Of a DNA stretch of 64,000 nt, positions 3,203 to 64,000 are shown in pieces. The position numbers and the translations under genes were made by a program. Source of the DNA: Trebouxia sp. TZW2008 (Eukaryota > Chlorophyta > Trebouxiophyceae > Trebouxiales > Trebouxiaceae); NCBI GenBank assembly GCA_002118135.1, contig BDIU01000231.1:1-64000 (forward strand), given 5' to 3'. Every line of letters starts with the position of its first letter. Position 1 is the first letter of the stretch. The notes under the pieces were generated by a model. The model ran no database searches. It had not been told where the DNA came from and saw only the letters and a list, made by a program, of their open reading frames with translations.

Positions 3203-6200
3203 TTATATGGAAACAGAGCGGCTCAATGGCTCACTGTGTGGCTGTGCATCTTCATGCAAAGACCTGTCTGAGTCATCCCTACTGACAAAGCGAGCAATTT
3301 GCCCTTGCAACAGCTGTGTTGTCTCTTCCCAGCCTACACCAGCCTCTTGCAACACCACTGAGGATGTCAATCTGTCATGTGACTGCCTCCTGCTGAGTGG
3401 TACTGGTATATCAATACTAGTGTTTCTAGACAGCTGCTGTGCTTCTTCATCAACTATGACTGGTTGTGCTGATTTTGGAGCTGGGCGAAGCCATTTCTGC
3501 AGCATCACAAGCAAGCTTCTGTCCACATGTCCAACTGTCTAAAACTGAAGTTGAACCACTTGCAGGTATTGGCGGCTGTACGACGCAACCATCAAGATCA
3601 ATGCCATTGCATGACCATGTGCGATGGACTGACAGGCTTTTACTGGCAAGCAACAAGGGGCATGCTGACTGCAAGCATTGATTGCATCACAGTCATTATT
3701 TGCATGATCCGTTAAAGCTTGCGCTGTGTTGGAAAGACACCAAAATAGAGTCACTTGCAGATGTTTAGATATGTCGGGGAAACACAAGCCGCCTACTTGC
3801 ATTAAGAGGATGCCACTGAGCGTAGTCATGGCAGTATCAAAACATGCTCTGTGTAAGATCTATGTGAATAAGTGCAACCCATACATCATGAAACCACTGT
3901 ACCTGGAAGATGAGTATGCCAAAAGGGGACATGCAGGTAAGCAAAGTAATAATCAGCCAAAGGGTGTGGCCATGGCACTGATAACCTGGAGTCTGCCTGC
4001 CAGGATCTGCCTCACCACAGTTCACCCCATCATTGGGACAGAACTGCCCCAGCAGATAGCCACTGGCAGTGCCTGCATACTGTCACTTCACAGTCGGTGC
4101 TTTAAACAGTATCAAACTCAACACAACCCATGGCTGACATTGCACTTCCCAGCCAAGATGAGCCACAGAATGTGATCATGGCACTGGTAGCCTGGAGTCT
4201 GCCTCCCAGGATCTGCCTCACCACAGTTGACTCCATCATTGGGGCAGAACTGGCCAAGCAGATATCCACTGGCAGTCCCTGCACCATTGTCACTGCAGTG
4301 TCTTGTAATGGCTACAAGTTAAGCAAGGTGACGATGTGCAGCAGGGTGTGGCCATGGCACTGGTAGTCTGGAGTCTGCCTGCTAGGATCTGCCTCACCAC
4401 AGTTGACTCCATCATTGGCACAAACTTGCCCCAGCAGGTATCCACTAGCAGTGCCTGCGCCACGCCAGTACGACAGGTCACATGTAAAAACAGACAGATT
4501 GTACCTGGGTATCAAATGCATCGCATTGAATGCAGATCAGCATAGCAAGACAGAAGGCAACTGTACTTTGATGATTTTCACATGCAAAATAACTCCACGC
4601 TGACATGGCAACAGTCCTGCTGACACTCAAGCAAGCAAGCAGAATGCATGTACGCTCGTTTGTGCCCTGTGACGTAAATCGCGAGCGAATGTATGCCTCA
4701 GCTGGTGAGTTGAGTGGATCTGAGGGTGTCTGCAGCTAAGATCGTAGTGAAGCTGTCTGTGCTGTCTGTTGCGCTGCCGCTGTCGGTCACGAGCGATAAT
4801 GCACAGGCAGTAATCCAGGTGATGTTATGAGTGTCTACAGGCACTCGTGACCAGCATGTACGCTCCAGACACAGACTATCTCGCCTCTGACATTGTGCAC
4901 CTAGCAGGGTCACAAAACCTCACTGGCAAGCATGCAGATGATATTGACGACAACATGCTGCTCAAATTCAAGCAAGCATTGATTATTATTATTAATCAAT
5001 AATCAATGCTTATGTCTCATCTGGTTTTGCTTCCCACCAGAGAAAGCGCAAAACCCTTACCCTAAACCCTACACCCTAAACCCTACAACCCAATCCCCTA
5101 ACAAAAATACAATTTTGAAATTTTCCTGGGGCTTTTGAAACCCTACCGCCCGAAACCCAATGACTTATAATGTCAGGGGCCAGAGCGCACCTGTGACAAA
5201 CTTGCCCAGAAACAAGGTAGCAGACGCCATGGCTATAAGTAATCCTTGCCTGCTCACCGTCAAACAATCAAGAAGGATACATGCATCTCCAATGCAAATT
5301 ATCTTTCCTGTCGACATGATGCCGTTTGGCGTTAGCAAGCAGGCAGAGCCCACCTGTGACAAATTTGCCCAGGAACAAAGGGGCGGACGCCATGGCTGTG
5401 AACACTCCTTCCCTGCCCTCTGGAGCCACTGACATGCTGTAGTCATACCACCTTGGAGACCAAATGGACTCGCCAAAAGACAGCTGGATCACAAACAGTA
5501 CTGTGGCCCACTCTGCAACACAGCAAAGCACATCAGGTTGTGCGCATCTGCATCGCAACTGTTTTCATGCTTGCTAATCAGCTTCCACGACCCTGCTAGG
5601 TCCAGACCATTTCAAGTCATAAAGAGGCAGCGTGGTGACTCAACAACACAGCAGACCATAGCCAGCCGTCATGAATTACGTGCTCACAAGTCTTTCCTGA
5701 GGAGTTGTACGCTGATCAGGGAGGTTTCGTGCTCACTGCGCAAACAATTTTTGGCAGATGCACCTTGCTGACCAAAGGGATGCTTTTGCTGACTGGACAT
5801 CAGCAGGCTTACCAGTTGTGAAGACAGCCATCCACAGAGGTGACAGAGCTGACACATAGCTGCCATAGTGGATCATGTCAAAGTGGGAGTAATGGGTGGC
5901 GGCTGCTCCTACCAATGGCACCAATGTCATGATCATGGCTGGATTAATACTGTACACTGTGCCCACAGGAGCACTGCAGCCAAATGACCTGCAGCAAGGT
6001 ACAGCTTGTGTCATGCTGATGCTTTGACGCCCACGCTTGAGCATTTGTGATACAGTGGAACCAGCATTTTGATGATGGCGGAATGGATACTGTACTCCGT
6101 GTCCACAGGGCCACTGCAGCCAAATGACCTGCAACAATGTGCAGCTTGTATCATGCTGGTGCTTTGTCACCAATGTATGTATGGTTGCGATACAGCAAAA

Positions 6201-9200
6201 CCTGCATCACAATTGGGCTGGATTGACTGTGCATTGCACCCACAGGAGCACGGCAGCCAAACGACCTGCAGCAGGGTACAGCTTGTGTCATGCTGATGCT
6301 TTGACACCCATGCTTGAGTATTTGTTAAACAGTGGAACCAGCATTGTGATGATGGCTGAATGGATATTGTAATCCGTGTCCACAGGGCCACTGCAGCCAA
6401 ATGACCTGTGGCAATGTGCAGCTTGTGTCATGCTGGTGCTTTGCCACCCATGCTTGAGCAGTTGTGTTACAGCCAAACCAACATCACAAGCTGTGAGTGT
6501 ATCATTCGATTACAAACTTTGCCAGCTGTCTTGGGAAGCAACAACAGCTGTTGACACTGCACCTGACTTGGTACTTTGGTAGAGTAGCGTCGAGGTGCCT
6601 GAAGATGGCCTTCAGATTGACAGTGATGACGCACATGGCCATGTACTTCCTGAACTCCCTTGATGACACCAGCTCCTGTAAACATACACAGTGCCTCAGA
6701 CTTGACAAACAAAGCAAAATGCTTTGGCCATATCCTGGATACACGCTGTGCTCCAGAGTGCTGCATCCGCTAGTCTGCCGAGATGCTCGTCAAATCCCAG
6801 CTGTCTAGACGTTACGTTGAGAGGACCTGCACAATCTGCCTGACTGCTTGCTTGCTTAACAAAGACAGCACATTAACATTGCCGGAGCATGTCCATTGCA
6901 CAGTCCAAGCAAGTTTGAAAGTCACAAAGCTGAGGAGTTACAGCTGTGCCCGCCTGCTTTCGCAAGCTGTTCATTCAGTACATTCATCACAAACGTTTGA
7001 GACTCAGAGGTCACTTGGGCATGAGAGTATCTGTGACACAACTCACACATAAGCTGATGCAACTGTGCGGCACGATTCCGCAGAATATAGATGTCACAAA
7101 TGCTGCTGCTTTTGCTGCTGCACCATCACAAACATTTGCTAGGCAAATTCTGAGACCCAGCAAACAGGTATGTTCAGGCACAAGCAGTGCATCACCTTAA
7201 CTTGTGCTGCAACTCGCTGCAGTGCATTTGGCTGAGCTGGACCGCTCTGCTGTTCTGCTTCTTCACGGCCCTGTTCAGAGCTTGTTGCAGCCTCATAGTT
7301 TTTGCCCCTGGACTTTGCCTAGAAGCATAAAACACAATGATCATTGCAAATAACACTCAACAAACGATACACAAGTCTTCAAGTCAAGTCTTGGAGGAAG
7401 CATCCACTCAGAAGCAGTGCAAACTGTGACACAGGCAAGCGTTGCCATCAGCACGCAGTATGCAACATGGACATTACGGTAGCAATCACTGACATGGAGA
7501 GTGTGGTTACTTACTGTTGTTACATCCTGGGGCACTGGCTTGACGCCTTCACCATCATCAGTCAGTCTGTGCTGGTCAGGCGCCAGGGGCAATCCAACTC
7601 CAGAAGATGCTCTGCTTCTGCTGTGCTTGGCAGGTAGAGAGTGCTCACGGATGGTGAAGTTCAGCAAGAAGCCTGTGCCAGCTGCAAAGCACCCTGCAGA
7701 AGGCAGTTCAGCGATAAGAGACACAGAACTGAGAAGTGCAGAATAAGGGGCGAAAGTCGAGCGGTGATGGGCAGTGGGTAAGGCATGAGGGCTGAGGGAG
7801 AAATTTTGCAAAAGCTCAAGGATGGGCAAGTCTGCAAAGAGGAAGTTTTTGCAGATGTAATAGCAGCCATCAGATCTTAGCTTGCCTCCAAATGCGCAAG
7901 CATCATAACGTCTCAACAGGAGGCTTATGTCAACCTGGTGTTGAGATCTAGCTACACAGCATTTTGCAAGACTTTCACAACATTTACAAGCAATGCTGTT
8001 TTGCTGTGCTTAAATGTATCAAACTCAAATCTTGTTCAATGTTGGAGCCTGGCCCATACAACCAGGCATAGCCCATACGCTAGTGATGGCATTGCTGTTG
8101 CTGCTAGTCATTGATGGTTGCCTCTGTCACGTCTACAAAGCGAGACTCTATGCATGGCTGATTGCTGAGCTCTGATGCAGCAGGCACCTCAATGGCTTAC
8201 CAAGCACCAGATACAGGCGGTAGCCACTGTTGGGCACACGGTCAGCTGGCCGGTCTCTGATCTCAAGGTCATTGTGCATGGTGACTCTGTACAGGTCTAG
8301 AGTTCACCTAGACAAGCCATGAAGGCAATGACGAGAGACAGGATGAGTCGTCATGACACAGAAGATGTTCAATGACTCACCAAGCACAAGATACAGGCGA
8401 TAACCGTTATTCAGCACATTGTCAGCTGGCCAGTCTCTGATAGCAACGCCATCACTCAGGGTGACTCTGAACAGGTCCACAGGCCACCCAGACAAGCCAT
8501 GAAGGCATTGACCAGAGGCAGGATGAGTAGTCATGACACAGAAGCAATCCAATGACTCACCAAGTACAAGATACAGCCGGTAGCCACTGTTCAGGACGCT
8601 GTCAGCTGGCCGGTCTCTGATCCCAAAGCCATCACGCAGGGTGATTCTGAACAAATCCAATGCCCAGCCAGACAGCAGGCTAGCCACATTCATGGCCGCA
8701 TACAGTACGGCATATGCAAAGCCCCTGTTGCTCTGCAGCAGAAAAGGTACTGTTTGTGGTTTCATTGATGACACAGAAACATCCATGAAACTGAATAGCG
8801 CATTGGCGCTGAACTATCCTTTGCAGACTGGCAACCCATCATCATGCATGCACAGACACTCTTCAGAAGCACATGGCAATGCAAGACAGAATGAGAGGTG
8901 AGTACAGAATGACAGCTCAGCTCCAAAATGATGTTGACAGACTTGATCTGTGCTGCATGTGTACTTCACAGGCAGTCGGAAGAGGAGGGGCCACCAGTGA
9001 GCCAGTTTGTGTGCATAGCAGGCAGAGTCTTATAACATGTTGTTCGGCCACAAATGTGCATCCAGCTGCAGCACTATTTGACACAGCTATGCTTGTAAGA
9101 TACTTGGGTGTATGTGAGCTTCAGCACATGGTGAAGAGACAGCTAGTGGTATGTTCTATGTCATGACCTAATGATGGACCAGCATTGTGCATGAAGCCAC

Positions 9201-12813: not shown

Positions 12814-15800
12814 TCATGTAAAGAATGCAGAGGTGGTCACATGGCTGTTGGGTTGCTGGCCATGGTTTACACATTCATTGACCACAGCAAAGCTATGCTG
12901 ATACACTGGACCAGCAGCGCCATTCTGTCCCCACCCGTTTGCATACTGATCATTTGAATGGCCTGCTCCATCATGTTGTGCATACGCAGCATGACTGTTG
13001 GCATGAGCATCAGCTGCCCAGCCATTTGCAGCCTGGAACTCAGACTCAGCGTTTGAGTCAGGCTCAAGCCTGTCTGAGCCTTGTTCTGGGGCACCTGACT
13101 GCTCATTTGAGGGGCGATTCTCATCAGGGCTGTAGTGTGCAGCCTCGTCAGGCTTGCCACCTCGCAGGCCAGCCCGTCTGCTTTCCACAGGAGCTGGCCT
13201 GCACAAACCAGTCAACATGTACTTTCTATAAGGAGAATAGTGCCCAGGGGCGACCTATACAGGCGTTGTCAGCATGAATTCATTCCCAGAGATCCACTCA
13301 ATAAAAACGTACAAATGTGAGTGACACCACGAGCGTGCAAATTCAGCATGGCATCAATATTCGTTTCGAACTCTTTGAGTTTCTGCTACTTTCCTGCACG
13401 CTGCATATCAGCCAGTAGCTGCAGACTCACATCAGGAGCAGGCTTCACAGAATAAACGGCACATCCTGAGAGGCTGCAAGCAGCCCAAAGGCGCCTTGAA
13501 GCCAGGAGGAAAAGTCAAAAACGAGTGCTATCGGGTGTTTCACTGGAATCTTCCATGAGTATATGCAGCCCAGAAACAGTCATGATGCGCATTTTGTTGA
13601 GCAGCAATGTACCTTGACCAGTCCCTCTGCATCCTTGCAGATGGCTGCTCCCAAACCTCATGCCGGCCACCCCGGATGGCATCCTTGATAGTCTTGTCAT
13701 ATTCATCGTAGTTGTAGTTGACCTGAATGACAGATTAAGAGGAGCTGAGCAAGGGAAGAAATAATTATAGGAAGAGTTTTGCTGAGTTCATTGGTGTTCG
13801 CAACATCAGTACATGTTGAAGAGCTTGTCTTGGCTGTGCTGTATTGATGGAGGTTATCAGCATTCAAGATTAGCAGCCAGCAACAAGAGTGCTGCCTGAT
13901 CTGGTCAACCAGGAGATGGCTTGATGACTAACAAACAACGAAACAGACAATCAATGGATCTATATGTCTCGACTCAAGCATTGCCAGATTGCAGTTTGAG
14001 GACAAAACAGACCAGAATAGTCTATGCTGCTAAGCGTGTAGCAGGAGCCTGTTTCAACAGACATAGCCTGTAAGTGGGGAAAGCAACACGGAAAGCCCTA
14101 CCTGTGTGCGCTGCCGCCGCGACCGCCCATAATGCCCATTGTCATCAGGCACGATATTACTCAGCTGCGCAGCTACCTTGGCAGCTGCTTTGGCTCGCTT
14201 TTCCAGCGCCTCAGCCCTTGCCACCAGCGTGGGCACAACGTCGTCAAGCAACTGCAGCAACACCCAATGATTGCTGTGTGTATGCGAGCACAAGTCCGTC
14301 AAATTGTGCCAAATCGTTGATGCCAAACATTGGGCTTGAGATTTTGGCCAACTGCCTGTGAAGCTTGACAGAAATCCTCACGCAGGTTGGGATGCATCGG
14401 TGCTTGCACATGCACAGGAAGAGGTCTACATCTTGTGATGCTATGCACCTGCTGACCATTATCTGTGTTGGTTGCAAGGCTCCAAAGGGGCTTAAGGTGC
14501 AACCTGTTTTCGCAAAGTAAACACCAGATGCCAAAAGGGCTTGTGCACTCAGCTTGGCATGCAACAAGTCAAGTTGCTGAGCATTGTCTGAGCCAAAACT
14601 TGCCCAAATCAGCTGATGTGAGGCCGTTAGTGAGGCAAACCTCACCTGGTAACCGATGTCAGCTTCAGCATTGGAGGCACTGCCTGTCAAATCCTCTCCA
14701 ACAGCTTGAAACTCATCAGTACTGCTGCCTAAAAGCTCCCAGCTAGGCGCAGCAGGCGGAGACACCAAGCTGCCCCCATGAGTCATCTTTGCCTTCTTGC
14801 CCCTGCCCTTAGTACCTTTGCCCTTTGCAGGGGCTGCATCCTTACCCCTGGTGGATTTCTGAGGGGTTGGGGAGGGGGGCTGCTCTGCTGGCACCTCTTT
14901 GTACAACCTTGTGCCTGAACATGCCACAGCGCAAGTCTTAGCTTGTCTTGCTTGCAATGGCTGTTGTCCTGGCCCCATGCATCATCTTTGCCATCTGGCT
15001 CCTACTGTTAGCGTCTCTGCCCTTTGCACGGGCTGCATCCTTACCCCTGGTGGATTTCTGAGGGGTGGGGGAGGGGGGTTCCTCAGCTGGCACCTCTTTG
15101 TACAACCTTGTGCCTAAAGACACAAAACCGCAACTGTTGGCATGTCACTTCTTTGCAATTCACACGTTACCCTGCCTTATTGTCAGCAATTGGGTGATTG
15201 CCAAATCTTGCAGACACAGCAGATGGCACATTGCCTTGAGCATCAGGGCACTTTCAGCAGCACTGCCACCTTACAAGCAACAGCAGCTGCTGACGGAGTA
15301 CAGCACTGATAGGTGTCTGTGCTGTACCTTGTGTCTCAGATTGGTCTTGAGCCTATCAAATTCCATGTGCAGCCTCACAATGAGGCAGTGCCAGCTGAGT
15401 GTGCAAGTCAAGCAAATCAGCAAGTGTTCAAGACACACAGAGATGCTCACACGCAAACTCTTGATCCAGTAGCGATGACAGCTGGATTGAAGTGCCTGGT
15501 ACTGCCCTGTACTCTGTCACTTACTTCTCCTTGCAAAAGTTGAGTATCAGAGGTCCCAACAAAGACGCTCAGAACAAGCCTGCCTGGCAAGATATAGGAC
15601 CTAGGCCCCACACACACCAAGCATATGTGCTGGAACATGTAAATATGATCATTACTAGTGTTATTATCATTAGTTCCCTTGTACAATGAGTGTATCTTTA
15701 CCTGTCAGACTTGCATGGTTGCTGGGCCCTAGGTCAAGGTACCAGTACAGCACACCATCCTTGCCTTCCCCAAAGGGCTCATGCCTAACGTCCATGACTA

Positions 15801-22599: not shown

Positions 22600-25500
22600 A
22601 TGGCATTCGGCAGAAGCCAAAAGCCAGGAGCTGTCGCTGGTCACAACACTGCAGATGGCAAAAGCGCCTTGAACCCAGGTACGCGTGCGTCCTCGCAATC
22701 GCGGGTTGTCCTTTCGGCTGGGTAGTGCTTCCATCAGACTGATTTTCACCAAAGAGATCTGTCGGCTCACTCAGCTTCACACCTTGCTTTGCAGGCGATG
22801 CTACTGCCAGGGCTGGCGACTATGAGGGCCGCGTCACCTTCCGGGTCGTCATGGCCTCCATCGTCGCTGCCACAGGTGGCATGCTTTTCGGATACGATCT
22901 TGGTGTTACAGGTTTGCTATCTACAGTGGACTTCGCCTCACTGCTAGCTCTGCAGTTTCAGCTGTTGCAAACTTGCTGCTGTCCCTACCTGCAACGCTTT
23001 TGCTTTCAGGTGCTCAGCATTCATTCTTACTAAGCATGTCGTTCTGTGCAGGTGGTGTGTCATCCTTCCCATCTTTCCTGAACAAGTTCTTCCCAGAGGT
23101 GTTGGGTGGCAAGGGGAGAAATGCTTACTGTACCTACAACAGTCAGAAGCTACAGATTTTCACCTCATCATACTTTCTTGCTGGTGAGTGTCAGAACCTG
23201 AACCTGACTTCCAGTATTGCATGCTTCTGCATCTGTGACTAATGCAACCCTTACCAGAAACATGTGCAGCATCAGTTGGCTTGCGTGCTTACATGAGGGT
23301 CTGGCATGTGTACACACAAGTCAAGGACAGTTGCTTGATGACTGTAAATGCCCATCAAGGTCTTTGAGCTAAACCGGCATGCGCATCAATCTGACTGGAT
23401 AATTGAATGACTGCTTACACGTGTATTGCATGTCGTCATACACAAATGACTGCTTACGATAGTGTTGCTTTTGGCCAATATGCAAATGACTGCTTACACC
23501 AGTATTGCTTGTTGCCAATCCACAAGCTTTCATCATTCTGTGCTGCATGTCACACAGCAGTCATGTTGCTGAGATTGCTGCAGAGCTTTTACAGACTGAT
23601 AGAGAAGTTTGATGCCCTTGTAGTGCCCTCAGTTGTGTTGCTACTGTTGCAGGTGCCTTTGCTGGTCTGATGTCACATCTGCTGAATGCCCGCCTGGGTC
23701 GCAAGTGGTGCATGGTCATCGCTGGATTTTGGTTCACTATTGGAGCTGTGATCAACTGCGCTGCCCAGGACCTGGCTATGCTCTACGTCGGCCGTATCCT
23801 GCTTGGTTTTGGTGTTGGTTTTGCTAACCAGTCGGTAAGTCTCTGTCTCCAATCAGGCCTTCCATGTCTTTGACCATACCAGGTCTGTCATGATACTGTG
23901 CCTGTCATGATGTGCAAAGCAATGTAGAGTAGCGCCTCGTGTTGCTTGCTTGTTACATGGCTTTGTCAATTAAGCGTTTGCAGTTGGTCCCATGTGCCGT
24001 CTGCTGCGTGTTCAGAATGCAATGCATTTTCTCACGATTCTCGTGCTGATCTTGAGGAAACATCTACCACTCTAATTCACGTGCTAAAGCTGTGTCTGTT
24101 GATTGCAGGTGCCACTGTACCTATCTGAGATTTCCCCACCCAGATGGAGGGGCACCCTGAACCTGCTCTTCCAAACCTACACCATCTTTGGTATCCTAGT
24201 GGCCGCCTGCATCAACTATGGGACAGTCAGAACCTACTGGGGCTGGAGGCTTTCCCTAGGACTGGCTGCTGTGCCTGCTGTCATCTTGGGTACTGGTGCC
24301 TTGTTCCTGCCTGACTCTCCCAACTCCCTGGTGTTCCGTGGCAAGATTGAGGAAGGCCGTAAGGTTCTGGAGGCATACAGAGGTATGCGTGCATTGTTTC
24401 TGCCTTCATGTCTGCTCTCATGCTTGTTGCATGCTGGTGCTGGTCTACAGTTGATCTGAACAATCCTAGATGAGCGCGATTTTGGGCAATTTGAATTTGA
24501 GCCTTGACTATGCATAGCTTGATTGTGTATAGCAAGGTTCAGGAGTCTTACGAGTCTTGCATTGTTCTGCAGCGCTTTTGGCAGGAATGCTCTGCATGCT
24601 GTTGTCTTGAACATGTTGACTTAAACGCCTTTTGTTCAACGTAGTGTTAACCTGACCAAAACCCTGAGTTCAACCCTATTGCCAAGTGTAAATTGCTTTT
24701 ACGGAAGCATGACTTGAACATTTTTACTCACAAATGCAGTGTGCTGAATTCAGATGCTTTGTATGCTGCAGGCACCACCCATGTGGACGCTGAGTTTGCT
24801 GACATCTGTGATGCTGTGGCTGCCACCCAGCGTATCAAGCACAAGACCCGTCTCTTGCTCAAGAAGAAACATGCTCCTCAGTTGGTAAGCCTGCATGCCT
24901 TACACTTCCCTGTACAACAGCAAACAGTTGGAACTGTCTGTTGTTCAGCCATGTCCCTTGGGCTATAGTGTTCGGCAAATGCTCACATGTTCATATTGAA
25001 TACACATTCCAGTGCACGTGTACACATCAAGTCCAGCATGTTCAATCAAGCACTTGGCATGATATACAGTAGGCACTCAACTGCATCTCCCTGTGTCTAA
25101 CCTCAAACACTTGACTTTCATTTGGTTTCTGACACAAACGTTTGTACCTGCAGACTGCTGCTCTCTGTGCTTCACCTCAGACACTTGACTTGTGACATTC
25201 AATTGATTTCTGACATGTATGTTTATGCCTGCAGACTGCTGCCATCCTGATCCCAGCCTTCCAGCAGCTGAACGGAATCAACTCCATCACCTTCTACGCT
25301 CCTCAGCTGTTTGCCTCCATTGGTGCTGGTTTGACTGGCACTTACGGAGCTCTGCTGTCATCTGTGGTCATTGACGCCATTGAGATGGCTGGAACCTTGA
25401 TTGGTCTGGGCACTGTAGACAAGTAAGCTCTTGCATTGGCCACTAATCTCTTTGCACTGTTCACTTCTGACCCATATGTTCTCCATGACAGCATGGCCAA

Positions 25501-41710: not shown

Positions 41711-41759
<49 letters not shown>

Positions 41760-53700: not shown

Positions 53701-56700
53701 AATTCATCATTCATGTGGCACCTGCTCATGGTGTACTGCTCATGCAAGTCGTTCTCTTTAGGCTACAAAGCAGTGCTACAATGAGACCAAGTGAGTCATC
53801 ACCCATGGACCTCCTGATTCTGGTGTACTACTCATCCTCTCTGCAGGGGGTGCACAGCAGTGTCACAGTAAAGCACAGGTCAAACATGTCATACCTCCCT
53901 TGCTGGGCTTGGTAAACGTCTCATGGAAGTAGTCCTTAACACCAAGCAAGTCATCACCCATGCACGACCTGACCATGTTGAAGTGCTCATCCAACTTGAT
54001 ATGTTCAGGGTACAAAGCTGTGCTGCAATAAGGCACATTTTAACAAAGGCTCACCTTCCTTGATGGGCTTGGCAACCGTCCTGTGGAGGTAGTCCTTGTC
54101 AGAAGGTTGGGCATCACCCATGCGGCACCTGCTCATGGTGCAGTACTCCAAGTTGTTCTGTTAAAAGTCCAATACAGTGCCACAACAATGCACAAACGAA
54201 ACATGTCTTAACTTCCTTGATGGGCTTGGCAAACGTCCTGTGGAAGTAGTCCTTGTCAGCAGATTGGGCATCACCCATGCGGCACCTGCTCATGGTGTAG
54301 TACTGCAAGTTCTGTTGAGAGTATAAAGCTGTGCCACGACAAGGCACAGACCAAATCTGTCTTACCTTCCTTGATGGGCTTGGCAAACGTGTCATGGAAG
54401 TAGTCCTTGTTACCAAGCAAGTCGTCCCCCATACACCACCTGATCATGGTGTAGTACTCATCCAGATTGTTCTGCAAGGGGTAGCCTGTCAAGGCAATGC
54501 GGCACTTGGTTTTGACGCTCATCACTGCTGCAAACCTCTGGGTGGAGGGGTTCTTGATTTGGTGTCCTTCGTCAGCAACCACTACTGCAGCTTCATCGCA
54601 CAGCAGTGCAAATGCTCTGCGTTGAGCGATTGCCTGCAAGGAAGAAACAGTCTTAGGCATTTCTGCTGAATTGATGATGTACACTATGAACGCAAGCATT
54701 GGACAAAACTGCTCAGAGGTAGTTCACCACTTCTGTGTAAACCTGGCAGGGTCGCAATTCTTCACTAGCAAGCGTGTACATGATGGCGATGATGGTAATA
54801 GCAATGCTGATGATGAATGCAAAGGTTTCAGTTGTTGGAGAAGGCCTGTTAAGCGGGCGCCGAGCCCCGCTAGCCCTCGTTCATAAAAGCTCACTAGCAA
54901 GTATGTACACCAGAATGATAATGATGAAGAATGCAAAGGCTTGACTTATGCAGAATTTTCTGTGAATTCTGAGCCTGCTGACTTCAGCCTGGTAAGCCTG
55001 GTAAAAAAGTGAAATAAAGAAGCACAGCACAGCACAGCACAGCACAGCACAGCACAGCACAGCACAGCACAGCACAGCACAGCACAGCACAGCACGTAAG
55101 CAAAGTAAAGCAAAGGTAGTCAGTGAACAAGGGACCGTACCTTTTCAGTGGGCTCTGAGCCTGTTGACTTCAGCGTGGCATCCAAGGCCTGCTTCTTCAG
55201 TCTTGCAAACTTGTCATAGCTCACGACTAACACTGCTGCATTGGTGGTGCTCCATTTGTAGATATCAGGGAGGTTGTTGTAGATGGACACCTGCAACAAT
55301 GTCAATGTCTTGGAGGGTGTTCTAGATGAGCACCAGTAGAGAAGAACCCAATTGATACACATGATGCACTTGCACTCTCAATGGTGAATCTGTTATAGCT
55401 CACACAAATGACAGCTGCATTGGTGGTGCTTCATGTGTGGACGTTGTGAAGATTGCTGTAGATGAACACCTGCAGAGTCAAATGGGATTTGAATAGCTAG
55501 CTCATTGACAGTATTCACCATTGACAGTATTCACCATTGACAGTATTCACCATTGACAGTATTCACCATTGACAGTATTCACCATGACGATGATCAACAT
55601 GCACTGCTGCAGCTGTGGTGTTTCAAGGTCAATGTAGATGAACACCTGCATGGTCAATGAGGTCTGCAATTGCAGGCAAAGGGGCAAAACTAACAGTGTG
55701 TTCAGGCACTTTGCTCTGGTTACAGACTTGCTAAGTCAACACCTTCCACCAGCAAGGGGTTGAGACTTTGGGCAGAATTGACCAAGCTGCCAAGATGATG
55801 TGCACAACAAGAGTTAGAAGTCCTGTGCATATAAAGAGGCACACCAATCTCTAATGTGTCACATCTGGCTTCCCAAGGCTGGAGTATCTCTTGTTTGGCC
55901 ATTACTGATGCAAACCGAGAGCCTGCTGTCCCCTTGCTAGATGTAAGGTCATCATCACTGTCTGCTGCCCCAGTAAGCTAGTGCTGAAACTCCTCAACCC
56001 AGTTGTGCAGAACATTGCCAGGGACCAGCAACATTCAGCGTTTGTCCGGTGACCAGGCATGAACAACAATGGCCCGTGTCAGGTCAACAGGCTTGTGCAC
56101 AATGCAAGTGAAAAGGCAGTTAGGCAAAGCATTACTGGGCTACAGTAGCTGGGAGCGCTTGTCTGGCCATAACGCATGTACAATAATGACCCTTGCCAGA
56201 TCGACAGCCTTGTGCACAATGCAAAAGAGAAGGCTTCTGTAACCTTGCTAAGTGTGAGGGCATCAACACTGTCTGCAGCTCCAGGGAGCCAGTGCTGAAA
56301 CTCCTCAACGCAGTTGTGCAGAACATTGCTGGGCACTAGTAGCAGGAAGCTCTTGTCTAGCCGACACGCAGATTCAACAGCCAGCCCTTGTCAGGTTGCC
56401 AGCCTTGTGCACAATGCAAGTGGAAAAGAGTGTTGTTACCTTGCTAAAAGTGAGGGCATCATCACTGTCTGCTGCTCCAGGAAGCCAATGCTGGAACTCT
56501 TCAACCCAGTTGTGCAGAACATTGCTGGGCACCAGCAAAAGAGAGCGTTTGTCTGGCCAGTAGGCATGAAAGGTGTGCAGGAAGGCAATGGTCTGCAGTG
56601 ACTTTCCCAGACCCATGGAGTGGGCTAAGATGCAACCCCCTGCATCTTCTGCATCTTTGTCATCAGCCTGAATATGCACACACGCTCAAATGCTTGATGT

Positions 56701-59700
56701 GTAACTGTATGTGCAGGAAGGCAATGGTCTGCAGTGAGTTTCCCAGACCCATGGAGTGGGCTAAGATGCAGCCCCCTGCATCTTCTGCATCTTTGTCATC
56801 AGCCTGAATATGCACACACGCTCAAATGCTTGATGTGTAACTGTATGTGCAGGAAGGCAATGGTCTGCAGTGACTTTCCCAGACCCATGGAGTGAGCTAA
56901 GATGTAGCCCCCTGCATCTTCTTCATCTTTGTCATCAGCCTAAATATGCACACGCGCTTAAATGCTTGATGTGTAACTGTATGTGCAGGAAGGCAATGGT
57001 CTGCAGTGACTTGCCCAGACCCACGGAGTGAGCTAAGATGCAGCCCCCTGCATCTTCTTCATCTTTGTCATCAGCCTGAATATGCACACACGCTTAAATG
57101 CTTGATGTGTAACTGTATGTGCAGGAAGGCAATGGTCTGCAGTGACTTTCCCGGACCCATGGAGTGAGCTAAGATGCAGCCCTCTGCATCTTTGTCATCA
57201 GCCTGAAGCAGTCAATAAACAGTCAACGACACTGTGTTGATTACAATTGCAAGCGACCACTCTACTTGCTACAATCCTCAGTGCAGAACCCCTCACACAC
57301 AGACATTGCGGCTTAGGCTGTACTTGAGCTCAGTCCATCACTCAACATTCACAAATTTCAGATGTCAGGTTGCATGCCAAGTCTGACTGATGAATCCTGT
57401 GTACATAGCTGTACTTAGGCCATCTCAAGTCAAACACTTTGCCATAGCCAAGATGTCCTCTGTCAGTGAAGCAGATCTGTACTCAAAAAGGCTGCAACCT
57501 AAGAGCCTGGGTTATGTTTTCATACAGCAAGTGCACTACTTACCTCATACTCCAGCACAATGTTCTTCCACAGGAATCTGATGCCCTCCCACTGATGCGG
57601 CTTCAGCTTGACCGCCATGCAGCCAGCCACCAGCACCTGCAAGCCGATACTGTACAATGTCATTACTGACTCATAATAACATAGCCATTCAATAACAACT
57701 AAAATTTGTTCAAAGTTTTGCAAGCCATCATGCCATGTTTGCGTTTACTCACAATTCAATCAATCAGAGTGTATGCTGAGCAGTGTCAGCGGGCCAGCAA
57801 GATACTTGCTAGGCCATCCATTAGCCGTTATGCAGCCAGCCACCAGCACCTGCAAGACACAGCATTCAAGCAAAAAATGATTACCAGACAGGCAGCATAC
57901 TGCTGTCCATAACATATGGTCTGTGTTCATGGTATGAACACCGTATATAGGTACCAAATGGTAACAACTACACAGCTAATCACTGGCAATTCACTGTGCC
58001 AAGCAGCTGCAGTTTAACATCATTACATGTTTGTACTCACTCACAGAGCACTTGATGAAGGTGCATGCCGTGTCAGCGGCCCTACTAGATACTGAGGGAG
58101 GCAAGCATCTGGCTGTAAGCAGGGAACACCCTTGGCTCAATTCAACTGCAACAACCCCAACTGGAAACAAGTGTTCAAAAGTTGGGCCCAACAAAGCGAC
58201 ACACCTTGGAGTCAGTCTGAGAATCAGGAAACAGCGGTACAGCATCAGCCCCCATCTGAGCCCTGTGACTCAACCGTGGGGCAGCAGTGTTGGCAGCCAG
58301 GCTCTGCCGCCTTTCCTTCTTCTCCTTGCGCTTCCTGATCTTCTCTTGCTGAGCCAGTGCATCAGCCTCCCTTTGCTTGCGGCCTTGCTCTTGCCGCTGC
58401 TCCTGACGCTGCTCTTTGTGGGATGGACCATCAGGACTGTCACCTGCATGGTGTACAGGAGCGTCATTTGGAGGCCATGATGGCTTCACAGCCATAGAAT
58501 GATGCAGCTTTTGCAGCCACAAAGACTCCAAGCCACTGCAGCCCTGCTCTTGTCTCAGCTCCTGACATTGCTGTTTCTGAGACGGACCTCAGAAACAGCA
58601 ACCCCTTTGTCTGGGCTATCTGAAGGCAACAACATGCAGTTAAGTAGGGAACTGATATGTACCAGTGCTGCCCTTGTAGCAGCAGCATACAACAAACATC
58701 AGGATGTTGGCAAGATCAATCAGCTGCTGGCAACCCTGCTCTTGCCTCTGCTCTTGCTTACTCCTTCTGGGACTACCCGCCATTTGAGCCATCACCTGGA
58801 GGCAGTGCTCAGGGACTTGTTTCAGTGCTCAGGGACACGTGCAAAGTGCTTCGACCATGCCATCATGTCAATTTGTTGATACACACTGAAGATCTGGAAG
58901 TGGTTTGATGGCACTTTCAGACCAAAGAGATGTGCCGAGTCAGATATTACAGAGCTGCAAACCTGGCTGTCGCCGTGCAGGGGCAGACTTGCGCTTTGGC
59001 TTCTGCTCCAGGGTCTTCTTCTGCAGGTCTCTAGTCAACAGCTCAGGGCAGTCATCCACTTGCAACACCTTTCTGCGCTTTTGAGACATGCCCTGAAGGC
59101 TCAGCAGCTTCTTTGTCTTGTTGAAGAGCATTGTGGGCTGACGAGCCAAGTGCTGGCGCACAAAAGTCTGCTGCAATGCCATCACTGCCTCTGCAGGGCA
59201 TCACAAGTCAGTGTCAAAATGCAACCGCAGAAGAAATATGTTCTGAAGGCTCAGACGCTTCTTTGTCCTTTTGAAGGGCGAGGTCGGCTGACGTGCCAAG
59301 TGCTGGCACACAAACAGTTCCACCTCTGCCTGTGCAAGGCACCACAAGACATTTTCAGAATGCAATTGGAGATGGGACATGCTCTGAAGGGTCAGCAGCT
59401 TCCTTCTGCATATGCAGGGCGTAGTGGGCTGATGGGCTAGCTGCTGCCGCACAAAAGTGTGTTGCAGCTCTTTCTCGGCAGACTCTGCATAGACCACAAC
59501 TTGTCAGGTTTGTGATGTCACATTGGTGTCAGGTTGTGATTGATGGAAAGCAGGCAGAATGCAATCATGTTGGCGTCTGACCTGAGAGCTGTGCGGTAAC
59601 TTGCGCAGCGGGGCAAAGGACACTAACAGAAGGTCACAGAGTGCCGTAAAGGTAATGATCACACCAAGATCAGCCTGGTAGAAGAGCGCAAAAGACAGTG

Positions 59701-62700
59701 AATGCAGATTCATTAGCACTAGGACCCTGCATGCATGCTAAACAAAGGCGATATGTACGACATCTTCAGCGCAACAGGCAAAAATGCATGCAGTCAGCCT
59801 GTGGGTACATCAGAAAGGTGTGCTATTGGACAGGAATATCATTCTGCATAACACCTACCAGAGTTTTCTGAAAACAAAGCCTGTCTTGCGTCCTTGTAGA
59901 GGCTGTGAGTGTAAATGTCTCGCCTAACACCAGCACGACCTGCAAGTGATACAAGCCAGTCAGCCACACAAATGCCCTGTTTTGCCAGTCTCACTACACC
60001 ATCCAGGCTGTCAGTCTGATGTCATGTATGGCAGTCCAGTGGAATGCCATTTGAAACCTTCTTTGTCCATATCTGCATCACAATACAGACATACGCCTGT
60101 GCTGCAGCTGCAGCAACTGGACCTGCAAACTGTTGAGGAAGACAACATGCAGCTTTGCTCAGGGCGCATTGGCTCACGCACCACATGGTCATGCACACAT
60201 GCACAAACAGTGCTATGATTGATGTCTAGGCTGAGACTCGTACAATATGCGGTTCATCAGATGGACGTTGAGAACACTGGGCACTCACCTACAGATCGGC
60301 GTGACTTGTCAAGGGCACAGTGGTCAAGCAGGGCTGCAACCTTTTCTGAGCTGATGGCAAGGAAACTCTGCTGCTCATGGTCAAAGTCCATAGCATAGCG
60401 CAAGCTGGGGCCCATAAGTTTCCAAGGCACGCGCAGGCAACTGCGCCTGCCTGGAGCGTATACCACACAGGCTGCAGCATCTGAACGTAACATACCTGCA
60501 CCACAAAGCAAGCGAACTCTTGAGAGCAGGGCAAAATTTTCACCCATTTTTGTCAATTGCAGGACAGCTAGTGTAAAACACATATGTAGATGACTGAACA
60601 ACCAACATGACAAGAGCTGTACATCTCAAAAGAAAAGAAAAGAAAAGTCTATGCCGTTTGGCGTCACGATGGGCGCCTCTGTCTATCGAGGCAGCCCCGG
60701 GTACACCTGCTGTACTTCTGACTTGCAACACGTGCTATATGGCTGCACCTTCGTTAGACTTGCAGCAAATATATTGGCTGCATGCTTCACACACCTTGAA
60801 ACATAGGCAACCCAACCCAACCCAACCAACACCAATGCAATGTATGTTCTGCTGCACATTGAAGACAGTACAGTGCAAGTTTCTGAATGAAGGTCACCTT
60901 CAGAAGGGTGGTCAGCAATAGCATGAAGGTGCTGAAGGGCCTTGTCAACGCTCTTCTTCTGCTGCGTGTTGCCTTGTGAGGCCTTGACCCTTGCCACAAA
61001 CACAGCACACAGGAACTTGCCATCACCGAGATCCACCTCAAGCGCATCCAGATGCTTCAATCCCCATGGGTGCATGATGTGACTGTTCAAGGGAGCAGGC
61101 TTTCTGAGGCGAGTTACGTCAACGTCCTCCGTTGTCACTGCCAGTTTCTGCCACTTGGCGGCACGAGTGACAGTGACTACCCCTTCTTTGGGCAGAGTGT
61201 CAACGTCCACAAGTGCTGGTTGCCAAGACCACTGGCCAGGTGTGACTGTGCGCTCAATCTCAACCTGAAGACCTGACGGCTGGGGAGTCTTAAACGCATC
61301 TGAGGCTGAAGTTGGGATGTCTGCGTCATGGAAGATGGTGATGTCTACATCTGTTCCATCTTGAGACTGGTGGACGACAGACACAGCAGAGTCAGGTGGC
61401 TCCTGCTGTTGTTCGAGCTGATTTGCTGCTTCTACAGCATGCCCATTGGCAGGTTGCTCAGCCATCTGCTGTTCGTCAGGATCAACATTTACAATATCAA
61501 TATCCTGCTGATCAGAGGCATCCGCGCTATTCTTTTCATGCTCTGCTTTCATCTTGTCAGCAATGTGCTCATTGTCAGAAGCAACATTGACAACGCCAGT
61601 GTCCTGCGGGTCAGGAGCTTCTAAACCATCCTTGGCATTGTGAGCCTGAGCACCAGAGCCTAGCTCATGTGCCTGTTTGACGTCACCAGTGACTCCATCC
61701 TGATAGCTTGCTTGCTTCTGAAAACTCAGCTGCTCATCAGAAAAGCCTTGAGCTGACTCAGCATTGCCTGAATTGGCACTGTGCAAGTCCACATTGTCTG
61801 CAGGCTCTGGGCCTGCAACCTTGAGTGAGTCATGATCATGCTGTGCCTGATGTGCTGCTGAGTCACCTTCATGCTGTGCCTGCTGCGCTGATGACTCCTC
61901 TCCATGCTGCGCCTGCTGTGCTGGTGACTCATCATCATGCTGTGCCTGCTGCGCTGAGGACTCGCCTTCTTGCTGTGCCTGCTGCTCATTGGCATTATCC
62001 ATGATGGGTTTTGCTTCCTGCTCCAACTGCCCTGGGGCAGGTTCCTGCAGCCCCTCAGTGGGTGTTGACAATGCAGGTTCCTCTTCTTCGCCAACAGCTG
62101 CAGCTGCATCAGCGCCATCATCCAACTGAAGTTGCAAGCTCTTGGGTGTGTCTGTCTGAAGCTCCGTCTGAAGCCCCTCCTCAGCAGGCTGATCTGTGTC
62201 CTCTGGGTTCACAGGCTTGCCTGAAGGAGAAGAGGGAAAGGGCAAAGCCTTGTCTGAGGAAGAAGAGGGAGGGATCTGAATGGCAATCTGTGTAGGCCTC
62301 ATGCCAGGCACCACTAGCACTTGCGTCTGGCCAGTGTGCAGTCCAGCAATACCCCAGACAGGTGCTTGTGAGGGTTCCTCAGCCTCTTCATCTGTTCGTC
62401 TTCTTTTCTGTGATACTTCTGCTTCACCTACATCAACTGCAATTGTTGCAGTCATCTACAGCAAGTCTTGCTGCTGGCTTGACTGTTTGCCAAGGCAAGG
62501 AGCGTTTTCCGGCAGGATGCAGTAGAACTGTATGTGCTTGGGCTGACATTATGGCAATGCTGGACGCACTGCAGGCAATGCATTCAGGAAAAGCATGATG
62601 CATGCAGTCATGATGTCATAGTGCATGATGGGTCAAGGTTGAACAGTGTGGTAACAGTCCTCAGTCGCCAACTTGATTGTTTCTGACCATCGAAGGGCTG

Positions 62701-64000
62701 TGCCAAGCGAACATGGGAATCTGATGAGTCAAATGTAACAAGTGAAGAGTGCACAGTTGTGTGCCTTTGATACACTCAGAACTCACCTGGCATGTCTGTC
62801 ACTGCCTCATCGTCAACAAGCCAGGACCCGCTTGCGTTGTCATCTTCATCACCGATGCTGGCATTGCTAATTGCCTCATCAGACTCGGCTTGTGCCTCAC
62901 CAGACCTGCTCAACACCAACACCTCATTACAAGCAATTGCGATTTCTATGCTGCCAGACTTGCCTTGGCTGAGGCAAGAAACAGACAACCAGCAAGACGC
63001 ATGCAGAATACAAGCCATGCACAGCACAGGTAAAACGGACTGTGCCGCTATGAAAATGTTTTATAACATGTGTCTGGTGAGCCAAAGTACAGTAGCGAAT
63101 GAAGCTGCATCTGCTTTGCCAACAACCAGAATGCAATGCTTTGCAATTCACAATGTTGAACTGGCTCAATGTTAATGCCAGGTGAGGCTGATGGCCTGAG
63201 TGATCATCCTGAGGCTAGACTGATGAGCAGGTCTGAGCTTCGCTGTTGATGACTTGAGTTAGCATGTGAGTGTGCAGCTTGAGCCATTTCAGACCATAGC
63301 CGCCTTACCTATCTATCATGGACTGCTTCTGAGATGGCTTCTCAGGCTGTTGCAACAGCCCTGCCACTCTGAGCTTGAACAGCCCCTCTTGCAGGTTGTG
63401 GTACATCTGCTGAACGCCCTGGGTCCCAATCCTTATAGCCCTGACTGGCGCCTTGGCCTTGTGCAAGTGCATCACTGACACCTCGTGCACAAGCTTGGCC
63501 ACAACATTGCGCCAATGAGTAACGTCTTCTTGCCAGGCTAGGACTTGTCTAGCACTTCTGGATTGACGCCACAGCTTGTGTGCTTTGCGCTCCAGCCGAG
63601 GAAGCTGTGTCTCTAGCCACTTGGTCAGCATAACTCTCAAATTGTCTGCAACAGCATTGCCTCAAGTAAACATTGCAGCAGTGGAGTAATGGGGACAATC
63701 GCATGCACACGCTTGGCGACAACATTGCGCCAATGAGTAGCGTCTTCTTGCCAGTGTAAGACTTGACTGACGCTTCTGATTTGTCGCCACAGCTGTGGTG
63801 CTTTGCGCTCATGACGAGGGAGCTGTGTCTCTAGCCACTTGCTCAGCATCACTCTCAGGTTGTCTGCAACAGCATTGCTTCAAGTAAGCATTGCAGCAGT
63901 GGAGTAATGGCAACAATCGCATGCACACGCTTGGCCACAACATTGTGCCAATGAGTAGCGTCTTTCTGCCAGTTTGAGACTTGACTGACGCTTCTGATTT
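41474..64000 (-). CDS. ATRX-like SNF2-family chromatin remodelling ATPase, 5' end beyond window
   Basis: Motifs appear in order from high to low coordinates: [15 protein letters not shown] (about 57600), [20 protein letters not shown] (motif I, 56625), [17 protein letters not shown] (56530), [12 protein letters not shown] (55220), [11 protein letters not shown] (motif II, 54570), [15 protein letters not shown] (54490), [13 protein letters not shown] (53430), [19 protein letters not shown] (50520), [17 protein letters not shown] (49830), [18 protein letters not shown] (49390), WNPVHNAQ, and [20 protein letters not shown] (motif VI, 48870). GCILAH-MGLGK and LPPK(S/H)E are typical of the ATRX subgroup, which moves nucleosomes and deposits H3.3 in heterochromatin and telomeres. 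Upstream exons carry acidic/Gln repeats; downstream ones an acidic exon ([13 protein letters not shown]) and a 499-residue tail with poly-Ala ending [12 protein letters not shown] join the tail because the exon ending RRRKRLR (45764) has a donor in phase with the exon at 44832; it could be a separate gene. Confidence 0.85.
41713..41757 (-). repeat. (CAG)15 trinucleotide run encoding poly-Ala
   Basis: Fifteen uninterrupted CAG units on the plus strand. On the coding minus strand they read as Ala codons (GCT), giving a run of about 15-16 Ala in the C-terminal tail of the ATRX-like protein. The uninterrupted run suggests it is length-variable. Confidence 0.9.
44525..44720 (-). repeat. 39-bp coding tandem repeat (13 residues) in the ATRX-like tail
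   Basis: About five units of the type [13 protein letters not shown] with substitutions ([24 protein letters not shown]). The repeat is in frame and imperfect. The segment is hydrophilic and probably disordered. Confidence 0.85.
45325..45600. repeat. Three tandem units of about 95 bp in an ATRX-like intron
   Basis: Units begin near 45328, 45421 and 45516 with cagcagaatgcccatga and contain atggcatgcaacagacaagta and aaggtgaca blocks. It lies between exons at 45764 and 44832, with no coding frame. Copies differ by substitutions and small indels. Confidence 0.8.
45605..45745. repeat. Dispersed repeat with (AATG)n tail, copy 1
   Basis: Contains ttcatgtccaatatgatagg, gtacgtacctagtcgggcct, gctgagcctgccgaacccatg and ends in a gaaatgaatgaatgatg tail. 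A second copy is at 50262-50390. The simple-repeat 3' end resembles a SINE or LINE fragment. Both copies are in introns of the same gene. Confidence 0.7.
45775..46085 (-). repeat. Duplicated ATRX-like exon 'QELTAAQ'
   Basis: [23 protein letters not shown] (about 45860-45790) is echoed by [23 protein letters not shown] (about 46080-46015). The lower copy continues into the basic RRRKRLR end and a donor. Confidence 0.8.
46980..48115 (-). repeat. Six tandem copies of an ATRX-like exon
   Basis: The landmark tcctcccag(c)cagctat recurs at 47014, 47132, 47294, 47458, 47641 and 48032. The highest copy is complete ([52 protein letters not shown] plus donor). The others keep AV(N/S)S..EVL(K/M)SLL..DLA and parts of the end, with in-frame stops or indels in several. 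The copy at 47260-47395 also reads well ([19 protein letters not shown]). Confidence 0.9.
50262..50390. repeat. Dispersed repeat with (AATG)n tail, copy 2
   Basis: Diverged copy of the element at 45605-45745 in the same orientation, with gtacgtacctagttgggcct and gctgagcctgcctagcccatg followed by several gaatgaat units. Tail lengths differ between the copies. Confidence 0.7.
50635..50945 (-). repeat. Three tandem copies of the ATRX-like '[10 protein letters not shown]' exon start
   Basis: [13 protein letters not shown] (about 50675-50635), [13 protein letters not shown] (about 50790-50750) and [11 protein letters not shown] (about 50930-50895) follow each other, each after an intron-like TTGCAGAGG or CAGAAAC stretch. 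Only the lowest copy continues into the motif IV helicase segment. Confidence 0.85.
51200..51945 (-). repeat. Repeated exon 'AVREAV ... NSADAEL ... SVGERERA' in the ATRX-like gene
   Basis: The best copy spans about 51610-51410 and includes [20 protein letters not shown] and [13 protein letters not shown] plus donor. A partial copy of its first half is at 51800-51715. A partial copy of its second half ([13 protein letters not shown] plus donor) is at 51315-51215. Further fragments of the first bases lie near 51900 and 52000. Confidence 0.85.
52955..53490 (-). repeat. Three copies of the ATRX-like '[13 protein letters not shown]' exon
   Basis: Complete copy about 53560-53375 ([40 protein letters not shown]). 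A second reads [16 protein letters not shown] and [12 protein letters not shown] (about 53270-53165). A third at 53090-52960 is frameshifted and clearly decayed. Confidence 0.88.
53640..54480 (-). repeat. Five copies of the ATRX-like '[20 protein letters not shown]' exon
   Basis: The intact exon ends near 54366 and is contiguous with motif III. Downstream copies lie near 54300-54210, 54160-54055, 54005-53915 and about 53690-53645. They read [61 protein letters not shown] and [11 protein letters not shown]. Each is followed by a donor or donor-like site. Confidence 0.9.
55018..55095. repeat. (AGCAC)n pentanucleotide microsatellite
   Basis: About 15 perfect AGCAC units in an intron of the ATRX-like gene. 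It is uninterrupted and therefore probably length-variable. Confidence 0.95.
55190..55650 (-). repeat. Copies of the ATRX-like 'VSYDKFARL' exon start
   Basis: The intact copy (about 55290-55142) reads [20 protein letters not shown] then [12 protein letters not shown] second at about 55470-55385 keeps [15 protein letters not shown] and VSYNRF-like sequence, and a third fragment near 55645-55595 keeps only the acceptor side (caggtgttcatctacatt). Spacing is about 180 bp. Confidence 0.8.
55504..55585. repeat. 16-bp minisatellite (attgacagtattcacc), five units
   Basis: Five nearly perfect units of 16 bp in an ATRX-like intron, between two decayed exon copies. Confidence 0.95.
55975..56560 (-). 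repeat. Four copies of the ATRX-like '[19 protein letters not shown]' segment
   Basis: The functional copy (about 56550-56440) continues from motif I and ends ALTFSK plus donor. Copies near 56340-56240 and 56060-55980 keep PSNVLHN(C/W)[11 protein letters not shown], and a shorter one lies near 56190-56130. They follow the intact exon in gene direction, about 160-190 bp apart. Confidence 0.88.
56560..57205 (-). repeat. Five copies of the ATRX-like Walker A exon start
   Basis: The unit (intron end catattcag, then [20 protein letters not shown] and [11 protein letters not shown]) recurs with a period of about 133-140 bp. Only the lowest copy (56670-56440) continues into [11 protein letters not shown]. 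In the next copy GLGKS is GLGNS; in the highest it is GPGKS with a deletion; the other two keep GLGKS. The extra copies end at FLH without a GT donor. Confidence 0.92.
57540..57860 (-). repeat. Duplicated start of the '[11 protein letters not shown]' exon
   Basis: The exon beginning [15 protein letters not shown] (about 57642) has an upstream partial copy near 57857 with the same acceptor (cttgcag) and VLVAGCITA, after which similarity stops. Spacing is about 215 bp. Confidence 0.8.
58365..58770 (-). repeat. Three copies of an ATRX-like Gln/Arg/Glu-rich exon start
   Basis: Copies near 58400-58440, 58550-58595 and 58730-58770 share rc of ctgctcttgc..ctg(c/a)tcctgac..ctgctctt with degenerate continuation. 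Only the lowest continues into a charged helix ([20 protein letters not shown]). Confidence 0.65.
59055..59490 (-). repeat. Three copies of the ATRX-like '[13 protein letters not shown]' exon
   Basis: Copies near 59485-59380, 59335-59225 and 59185-59065 read [47 protein letters not shown] and [25 protein letters not shown]. Only the lowest continues with [16 protein letters not shown]. The period is about 140-150 bp. Confidence 0.88.
61825..62000 (-). repeat. Coding repeat of AQQAQH-type units in the ATRX-like N-terminal region
   Basis: About five units of 10-11 residues of the type [11 protein letters not shown]. It lies in a long acidic exon (from about 62455 to 60915) that ends [14 protein letters not shown] plus donor. 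Confidence 0.85.
63430..64000 (-). repeat. Three copies of the ATRX-like '[14 protein letters not shown]' exon
   Basis: Copies at about 63640-63310 ([35 protein letters not shown] and a longer end), 63852-63690 ([35 protein letters not shown]) and from about 63905 to the window edge. The acceptor landmark ttgtctgcaacagcattgc is at 63642 and 63860, 218 bp apart. Only the lowest copy continues into [18 protein letters not shown]. Confidence 0.9.

Follow-up and report, generated by a model that had tools for sequence, protein, structure and literature searches.

The window analysed here, a 64,000-nucleotide stretch of the green alga Trebouxia sp. TZW2008 (contig BDIU01000231.1, positions 1 to 64,000), contains short tandem duplications, many of which lie at the edges of exons. 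The window carries genes for an MFS transporter, a Ras protein, a DDT-domain protein, a sugar transporter, an RRM protein, GCN5, a CAAD protein, and an ATRX-like protein. These assignments are supported at the level of domains. The GCN5 protein has its closest relatives in Trebouxia sp. C0006, C0005, and C0010.

Tandem duplications in the window

A blastn self-comparison (E ≤ 1e-4, at least 40 bp, copies at most 3 kb apart) identifies 30 direct tandem-duplication loci in the window, which cover 18.1% of its bases at a density of 0.47 per kb. Only one inverted locus is found, and one first-order shuffle of the window gives no tandem locus by the same criteria. The MFS transporter gene has four loci, the DDT-domain gene two, and the RRM gene and the sugar-transporter region one each. 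GCN5 has four, three at exon edges and one short coding array, and the ATRX-like gene with its flanks accounts for the remaining 18. Short arrays within open coding frames make up four of the 30 loci, and their units of 48, 78, 39, and 33 bp are all multiples of three. The other 26 loci have longer periods that are not limited to multiples of three.

The loci are listed below. The copy that continues the exon is called the working copy, and the others are called spare copies. Numbers in brackets are units in bp. The unit is the smallest start-to-start offset of a locus, which for short coding arrays may be a multiple of the true unit.

3935..4462, minus strand: MFS acceptor-side array, offsets 206 and 382; working exon 3903-4072, two spare copies upstream
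5181..5416, minus strand: MFS donor-side duplication (163); working exon 5354-5512, spare 5181-5253 downstream, GT intact
5930..6489, minus strand: MFS acceptor-side array (140); working exon 5813-5988, three spare acceptors upstream, all AG
8189..8674, minus strand: MFS donor-side array (180); working exon 8561-8732, two spare donors downstream, both GT
14770..15159, minus strand: DDT-domain gene, two-copy duplication (199)
16529..16817, minus strand: DDT-domain gene, two-copy duplication (186)
25080..25242, no strand: sugar-transporter region, 74-bp tandem repeat
31419..31710, minus strand: RRM gene, two-copy duplication (166), probably donor-side
35055..35249, plus strand: GCN5 coding exon, in-frame short array, 48-bp unit
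35669..35959, plus strand: GCN5 acceptor-side duplication (161); working exon 35858-36101, spare 35669-35798 upstream, AG intact
36009..36341, plus strand: GCN5 donor-side duplication (184), also of exon 35858-36101; spare 36193-36341 downstream, GT intact
37495..37811, plus strand: GCN5 donor-side duplication (168); working exon 37419-37629, spare 37663-37811 downstream, identical donor CAG/GTGAGC
42678..42831, minus strand: 78-bp repeat, in frame, within a 525-codon open frame
44515..44718, minus strand: ATRX-like coding exon, in-frame short array, 39-bp unit
45325..45598, minus strand: ATRX-like gene, intron-only array, unit about 92-95 bp
45816..46076, minus strand: ATRX-like acceptor-side duplication (206); exon 45754-45852
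46963..48136, minus strand: ATRX-like donor-side array; exon 47998-48194, five spares downstream, four aligned across the donor (three GT, one AT)
50633..50797, minus strand: ATRX-like acceptor-side duplication (113); exon 50484-50674
51194..51516, minus strand: ATRX-like duplication (197), within a stretch without exon placement
51517..52046, minus strand: ATRX-like array (193), within a stretch without exon placement
52351..52562, minus strand: ATRX-like donor-side duplication (151); exon 52515-52644
52953..53504, minus strand: ATRX-like donor-side array (202); exon 53375-53571, two spare donors, one GT and one CT
53654..54474, minus strand: ATRX-like donor-side array (about 155); exon 54366-54633, about five spares downstream, three aligned across the donor (two GT, one TT)
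55212..55474, minus strand: ATRX-like acceptor-side duplication (179); exon 55141-55290
55908..56570, minus strand: ATRX-like donor-side array, offsets 194 and 507, downstream of exon 56440-56667; one GT, one GG
56574..57207, minus strand: ATRX-like acceptor-side array (136), also of exon 56440-56667; four spare acceptors upstream, all AG; the youngest array seen
58378..58592, minus strand: ATRX-like spare copy (159) upstream of exon 58205-58443; alignment ends before the acceptor
59082..59466, minus strand: ATRX-like acceptor-side array (150); exon 58963-59190, two spares upstream, one aligned across the site (AC)
61807..61985, minus strand: long coding exon, in-frame short array, 33-bp unit
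63486..64000, minus strand: array (218) at the window edge; the continuing copy is the most downstream one, as in acceptor-side arrays; outside the formal counts

The first-pass annotation, made from the sequence alone, had described pervasive local tandem duplication at more than twenty loci in 60 kb, with diverged copies and with the CURT1 and RAB11 genes free of it. The self-comparison agrees on each point. The longest alignment per locus is 69-95% identical, and neither the CAAD region (38-42.6 kb) nor the Ras region (9.6-14.7 kb) contains a tandem locus. Its gene names hold at the domain level, and RBM42, RAB11, and CURT1 are supported as far as the RRM_1, Ras, and CAAD domains.

The spliced exons of the window spell exactly the GCN5 product P0001 (721 residues) and the MFS product P0241 (606 residues). 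The genes span 5.1 and 7.0 kb, respectively, which exceeds the source contigs of the two products (two contigs of at most 3226 nt for GCN5, one of 2098 nt for MFS), of which we examined the protein sequences. Therefore, these contigs must come from spliced RNA of the same species. In the MFS array at 3935..4462, a chain through all three copies spells the identical protein; a single exon is the simpler parse and also translates exactly. The ATRX exons are placed by the Trebouxia C0005 protein P0122, less certainly than those of GCN5 and MFS, and the ATRX stretch 50675-52514 is excluded from the counts. A hand reading places a possible GC-AG intron at 49297 of the ATRX-like gene, after the exon ending in NAQ.

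On these exon maps, 40 alignments pair a working exon with a non-exon copy, and 31 of them cross a splice site. When the alignment crosses the acceptor, the spare copy lies upstream of the working exon (14 of 14). When it crosses the donor, the spare copy lies downstream (17 of 17). Every spare copy with a mapped site carries one of the sites of the working exon and never both (31 of 31). The other nine alignments stand outside this count. They include a 34-bp match at 53620-53653, which lies on the upstream side of its exon, the remaining copies of that exon being downstream.

The spare splice sites are intact in 13 of 14 cases for AG and in 13 of 17 cases for GT. All 11 spare sites of GCN5 and MFS are intact, and all 11 are skipped in the same-species spliced products. 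Some spare donors match the working donor over nine bases, for example CAG/GTGAGC in GCN5. In the 140-bp MFS array, the 25 bases preceding each spare acceptor share 84-96% identity with those preceding the working acceptor. The choice is therefore not explained by the sequence of the site alone. Nearness to the remainder of the exon would explain it. Duplicated splice sites were reportedly studied by Reed and Maniatis in 1986.

Spread, unit size, and age of the copies

The same search was applied to 24 stretches from other contigs and positions, picked by contig number and convenience rather than by random draw. They comprise 238,092 bases, or 0.35% of the 68.5-Mb genome (527 contigs). The sample contains 82 direct loci (0.34 per kb, 16.7% of bases), which are present in 23 of the 24 stretches, and six inverted loci. 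The window is only slightly denser than the sample. Duplication of this kind is not special to it and reaches further than the first-pass annotation had described. When loci are counted per 10 kb, their distribution is close to Poisson (variance/mean 1.30). No tandem locus is found in the stretches shuffled once each, nor in phage T4 or Escherichia coli, each searched over 50 kb in 10-kb pieces with the identical script. Scaled by length from this small, non-random sample, the genome would hold roughly 23,600 loci.

Whole-genome profile searches for protein kinase and helicase-C exons, with 138 and 112 matches listed, provide a second view. Among the listed matches, we selected by eye seven nested pairs, in which a shorter match is nested in a longer one no more than about 1 kb away, and all seven prove to be DNA tandem repeats. 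In four pairs (on contigs C73, C361, C130, and C352), the 5′ side is common and the short copy is upstream. In three (C15, C44, and C100), the 3′ side is common and the short copy is downstream. This is the geometry seen in the window, so these pairs from elsewhere in the genome fit the position rule. Several non-nested overlaps, such as C273:616217/616613, C285:77599/78061, C155:63172/63900, and C57:38842/39728, were left out, and a third helicase match in C44 has no DNA repeat behind it.

The units are confined in size. The median of the 112 units is 151 bp, the quartiles are 119 and 184 bp, and the mode is 140-180 bp. Eighteen units are below 100 bp, 86 are 100-220 bp, seven are 221-440 bp, and one is longer. 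The frame remainders 0, 1, and 2 occur 27, 26, and 41 times among units of at least 100 bp, which is not clearly uneven. To see which edges of the distribution are real, we consider simulated duplications of 5-30% divergence. These are detected in 23-24 of 24 cases at every size from 120 to 1000 bp, in 21 at 100 bp, 20 at 80 bp, 14 at 60 bp, and none at 40 bp. Therefore, the lower edge reflects the detection limit and the upper edge does not. Selection on splice sites was considered as a source of the upper edge and rejected. On the exon maps of the three genes, placements that take in no more than one splice site and are not entirely coding make up 0.83 of all placements at 150-200 bp, 0.77 at 300 bp, and 0.68 at 400 bp, a fall that is far too gentle. 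Flat detection and this gentle fall together indicate that the cap near 220 bp stems from how the copies form.

Near-identical copies are scarce. In none of the 82 sampled loci does the longest alignment pass 95% identity, and in only four does it pass 90%. The highest-identity array is the 136-bp ATRX-like array of the window, at about 95%. This shortage of near-identical copies means either that the process has slowed, or that such copies have collapsed in the assembly, or that they are still rare and unfixed.

Repeats of other kinds are also present in the window. A short dispersed repeat, unlike the local duplications, occurs in both orientations at 4896-4949, 15980-16042, 28916-28965, and 43583-43617. 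Two short arrays with 100% identical units, AGCAC x 15 (55021-55095) and a 16-bp unit x 5.2 (55503-55585), lie alongside diverged longer arrays. A perfect CAG x 15 at 41713-41757 reads on the minus strand as a polyalanine stretch within a 525-codon open frame. Telomere-like AAACCCT units lie inside the contig at 5051-5091.

Fate of the spare copies and proposed growth of introns

At residues that differ between copies, the nearest ortholog matches the working copy 261 times, the spare copy 21 times, and neither 55 times. By gene, the counts for working copy, spare copy, and neither are 102, 18, and 43 in ATRX, 41, 1, and 2 in GCN5, and 118, 2, and 10 in MFS. Two further relatives of GCN5 give 28 matches to the working copy against 2 to the spare, and 30 against 0. 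This bears out the earlier statement that a single copy matches the family and continues. Differences between working and spare copies arise at 0.45 of the 4-fold rate for non-synonymous changes and at 0.50 for stops; if one copy were neutral and the other fixed, 0.5 would be expected. The transition/transversion ratio is 1.65, and the rate of change at CpG is 0.225 versus 0.070-0.075. A bias of the repeat-induced point mutation type is not seen in this spectrum, the CpG excess being merely the usual one. The spare copies look like intronic relics in near-neutral decay, perhaps slightly slower, and not like functional or alternative exons.

Of the 19 non-coding loci in those parts of the three genes where exons are placed, 18 touch an exon. 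On the exon side of the duplications, the median identity is 0.84; on their intron side, it is 0.60 when 25 bases are compared and 0.50 when 50 are. With such decay on the intron side, intron-only duplications of equal age would mostly be missed, which explains part of the exon excess. Of the 20,078 intron bases of these genes, at least 4,659 (23.2%) belong to spare copies. Introns with spare copies have a median length of 771.5 bp (n = 14) and introns without them 405 bp (n = 20; one-sided Mann-Whitney p = 0.00017). Since room for duplications rises with intron length, this test is no proof of cause.

We consider it likely that the introns of Trebouxia lengthen through a size-limited and largely position-blind process of tandem duplication, whose products selection filters and splicing conceals. 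A mutational process would make head-to-tail copies of short, unrelated local stretches, mostly of 100-220 bp. Selection would remove genic duplications that add sequence to the mRNA, and the survivors would carry at most one splice site. If the copy includes the acceptor and the 5′ part of the exon, the old exon would stay whole at the end of the array. If it includes the 3′ part of the exon and the donor, the old exon would stay whole at the start. The spliceosome would go on joining the sites nearest the real exon, and the spare copy would turn intronic, be freed from constraint, and decay, so that introns grow by exon-edge pieces.

Several observations weigh against this explanation. Random tolerated placements predict that only 36-42% of loci touch an exon, and poorer detection accounts for part of the observed excess, not provably for all of it. 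The position rule follows in part from the working exon being uninterrupted; its informative part is the lack of any exception and of any unit of such size in the coding sequence of these genes. The ATRX exon placement rests on relatives, and the more distant ATRX relative P0124 gives a weaker ortholog test (39 working, 12 spare, 35 neither). Synonymous differences stand at 1.17 of the 4-fold rate, and the shortage of young copies does not fit a steady process. In addition, the pooled dN/dS between working and spare copies is 0.35 (GCN5 0.40, MFS 0.24, ATRX 0.38), below the value of about 0.5 expected with neutral spares. Upstream spares look more conserved than downstream ones: relative to the 4-fold rate, non-synonymous differences stand at 0.38 versus 0.49 and stops at 0.21 versus 0.70. 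Of the 31 spare splice sites, 26 are intact, where 21.7 ± 2.4 would be expected. The dN/dS, the upstream conservation, and the site retention hint at some residual constraint or use.

The low dN/dS and the slightly better retention of splice sites, together with the few stops in upstream copies (2, versus 9.7 at the full 4-fold rate), speak for spare copies that are functional as alternative or mutually exclusive exons, or as regulatory decoys that tune splicing. However, no spare copy in the resolved genes has both exon ends, and the spares are skipped in both same-species products (one spliced product each for GCN5 and MFS). The residue changes fall mostly in the spares and not in the working copies, and no internal repeats are present in ten proteins, four from other Trebouxia gene models and six from further relatives. 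We thus regard functional spare copies as improbable. The alternative exons of the first-pass annotation are accordingly not borne out, since the spares have no usable second end, decay near-neutrally, and are absent from the two spliced products.

Introns could also be born by tandem genomic duplication, as in the Rogers model, in which an AGGT is duplicated and the first copy then supplies the GT of the intron and the second its AG. The mutation would be of the same kind, and the available portions of PMC3443670 and PMC4974935 present this as a prevalent route of intron gain. However, left and right boundaries match in none of the 35 introns of the three genes (best identity 0.43 over 60 bases), and the duplications sit at existing introns and lengthen them, which makes this origin very improbable here.

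An origin from mobile elements or satellites recalls the many unclassified repeats of Trebouxia genomes noted in the accessible part of PMC11523091, but is hardly to be expected, as no unit resembles another among the 30 window loci or in the 238-kb sample, the one array probed against the whole genome matches itself only, and the units include parts of host exons. An assembly or annotation artefact, to which the lack of near-identical copies might point, since collapse would remove them and the assembly method is not known, is just as implausible: the copies have diverged at numerous sites, the pattern of substitution is an ordinary one, raised at CpG, the effect is present in nearly every sampled stretch, and errors would not obey the splice-site rule, in line with the earlier view that no simple assembly error is involved.

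Formation of the duplications and relation to known processes

The intron-lengthening process favoured above may be one of break repair or template switching, as the first-pass annotation had proposed, and the choice is narrowed by two features, the size limit of about 220 bp and the rarity of inverted copies. The intron-side junctions, where the microhomology or filler of break repair would lie, have decayed. That proposal stands as to the kind of process; the decoy exons attached to it appear to be relics instead. Its term "ongoing" finds no support in the identities of the copies, and the targeting of exons that it implied is at least in part an effect of detection. The most likely routes of formation are the filling-in of staggered breaks or nicks followed by end joining, and the faulty handling of lagging-strand fragments. 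Either could yield products of about nucleosome size, which would match the unit size. Mutants of RAD27/FEN1 produce duplications; nucleosome-sized Okazaki fragments were reportedly described by Smith and Whitehouse in 2012, and short duplications in plants by Schiml and others in 2016 and by Vaughn and Bennetzen in 2014. From such work and from unit size, we tentatively suggest a nucleosome- or Okazaki-sized intermediate as the route. It is conceivable, though doubtful, that a dedicated or defective step of replication or repair re-copies about a nucleosome length (60-220 bp) in tandem and has done so tens of thousands of times across the genome, in the past or at present. In that case, with splicing at the sites nearest the true exon, exon-edge copies would be tolerated, and duplicated exon edges would make up a large share of intron length (at least 23% in three genes). 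Intron growth would have a separate route, and the genome would offer a natural set of thousands of duplicated splice sites.

Among the routes to short tandem duplications, end joining after staggered-break fill-in is the one best documented. The part of PMC8355091 available attributes them to fill-in by CST-guided polymerase alpha-primase followed by end joining and finds them frequent in human and plant genomes. Like these, the Trebouxia copies are direct, head-to-tail, and local, and involve no element. Unlike the insertions of below 100 bp given in that portion of the paper, they have a mode of 140-180 bp and a cap near 220 bp. As with introns born by duplication, genic segments with splice signals are duplicated and the extra sequence is hidden by splicing, but the Trebouxia exon-edge copies lengthen existing introns and are never exons themselves. 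A potato paper on duplication-born introns, in its accessible portion, also records an 83-bp duplication within an existing intron. In tandem exon duplication and mutually exclusive exons, as in Trebouxia, exon sequence is repeated beside the original. The coding exons of those systems are added or used one at a time, whereas the Trebouxia copies are truncated, one-sided, and decaying. Internal gene duplication was reportedly treated by Gao and Lynch in 2009.

A literature search by title and start of abstract, with most subscription papers lying outside it, returned no paper describing exon-edge tandem copies in an alga. In the parts of two Trebouxia genome papers that were available (one of them PMC11523091), the words "tandem" and "exon" are absent and "intron" occurs once, in a reference.

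Annotators should expect false exon copies next to true ones when using gene predictors and profile searches. The size cap makes the mechanism of formation testable. If the explanation is true, thousands of natural arrays of near-identical acceptors or donors, of which only the exon-nearest is used, would be a ready assay of exon definition in a green alga. Intron length in a major group of lichen algae would then be driven by size-limited tandem duplication rather than by mobile elements.

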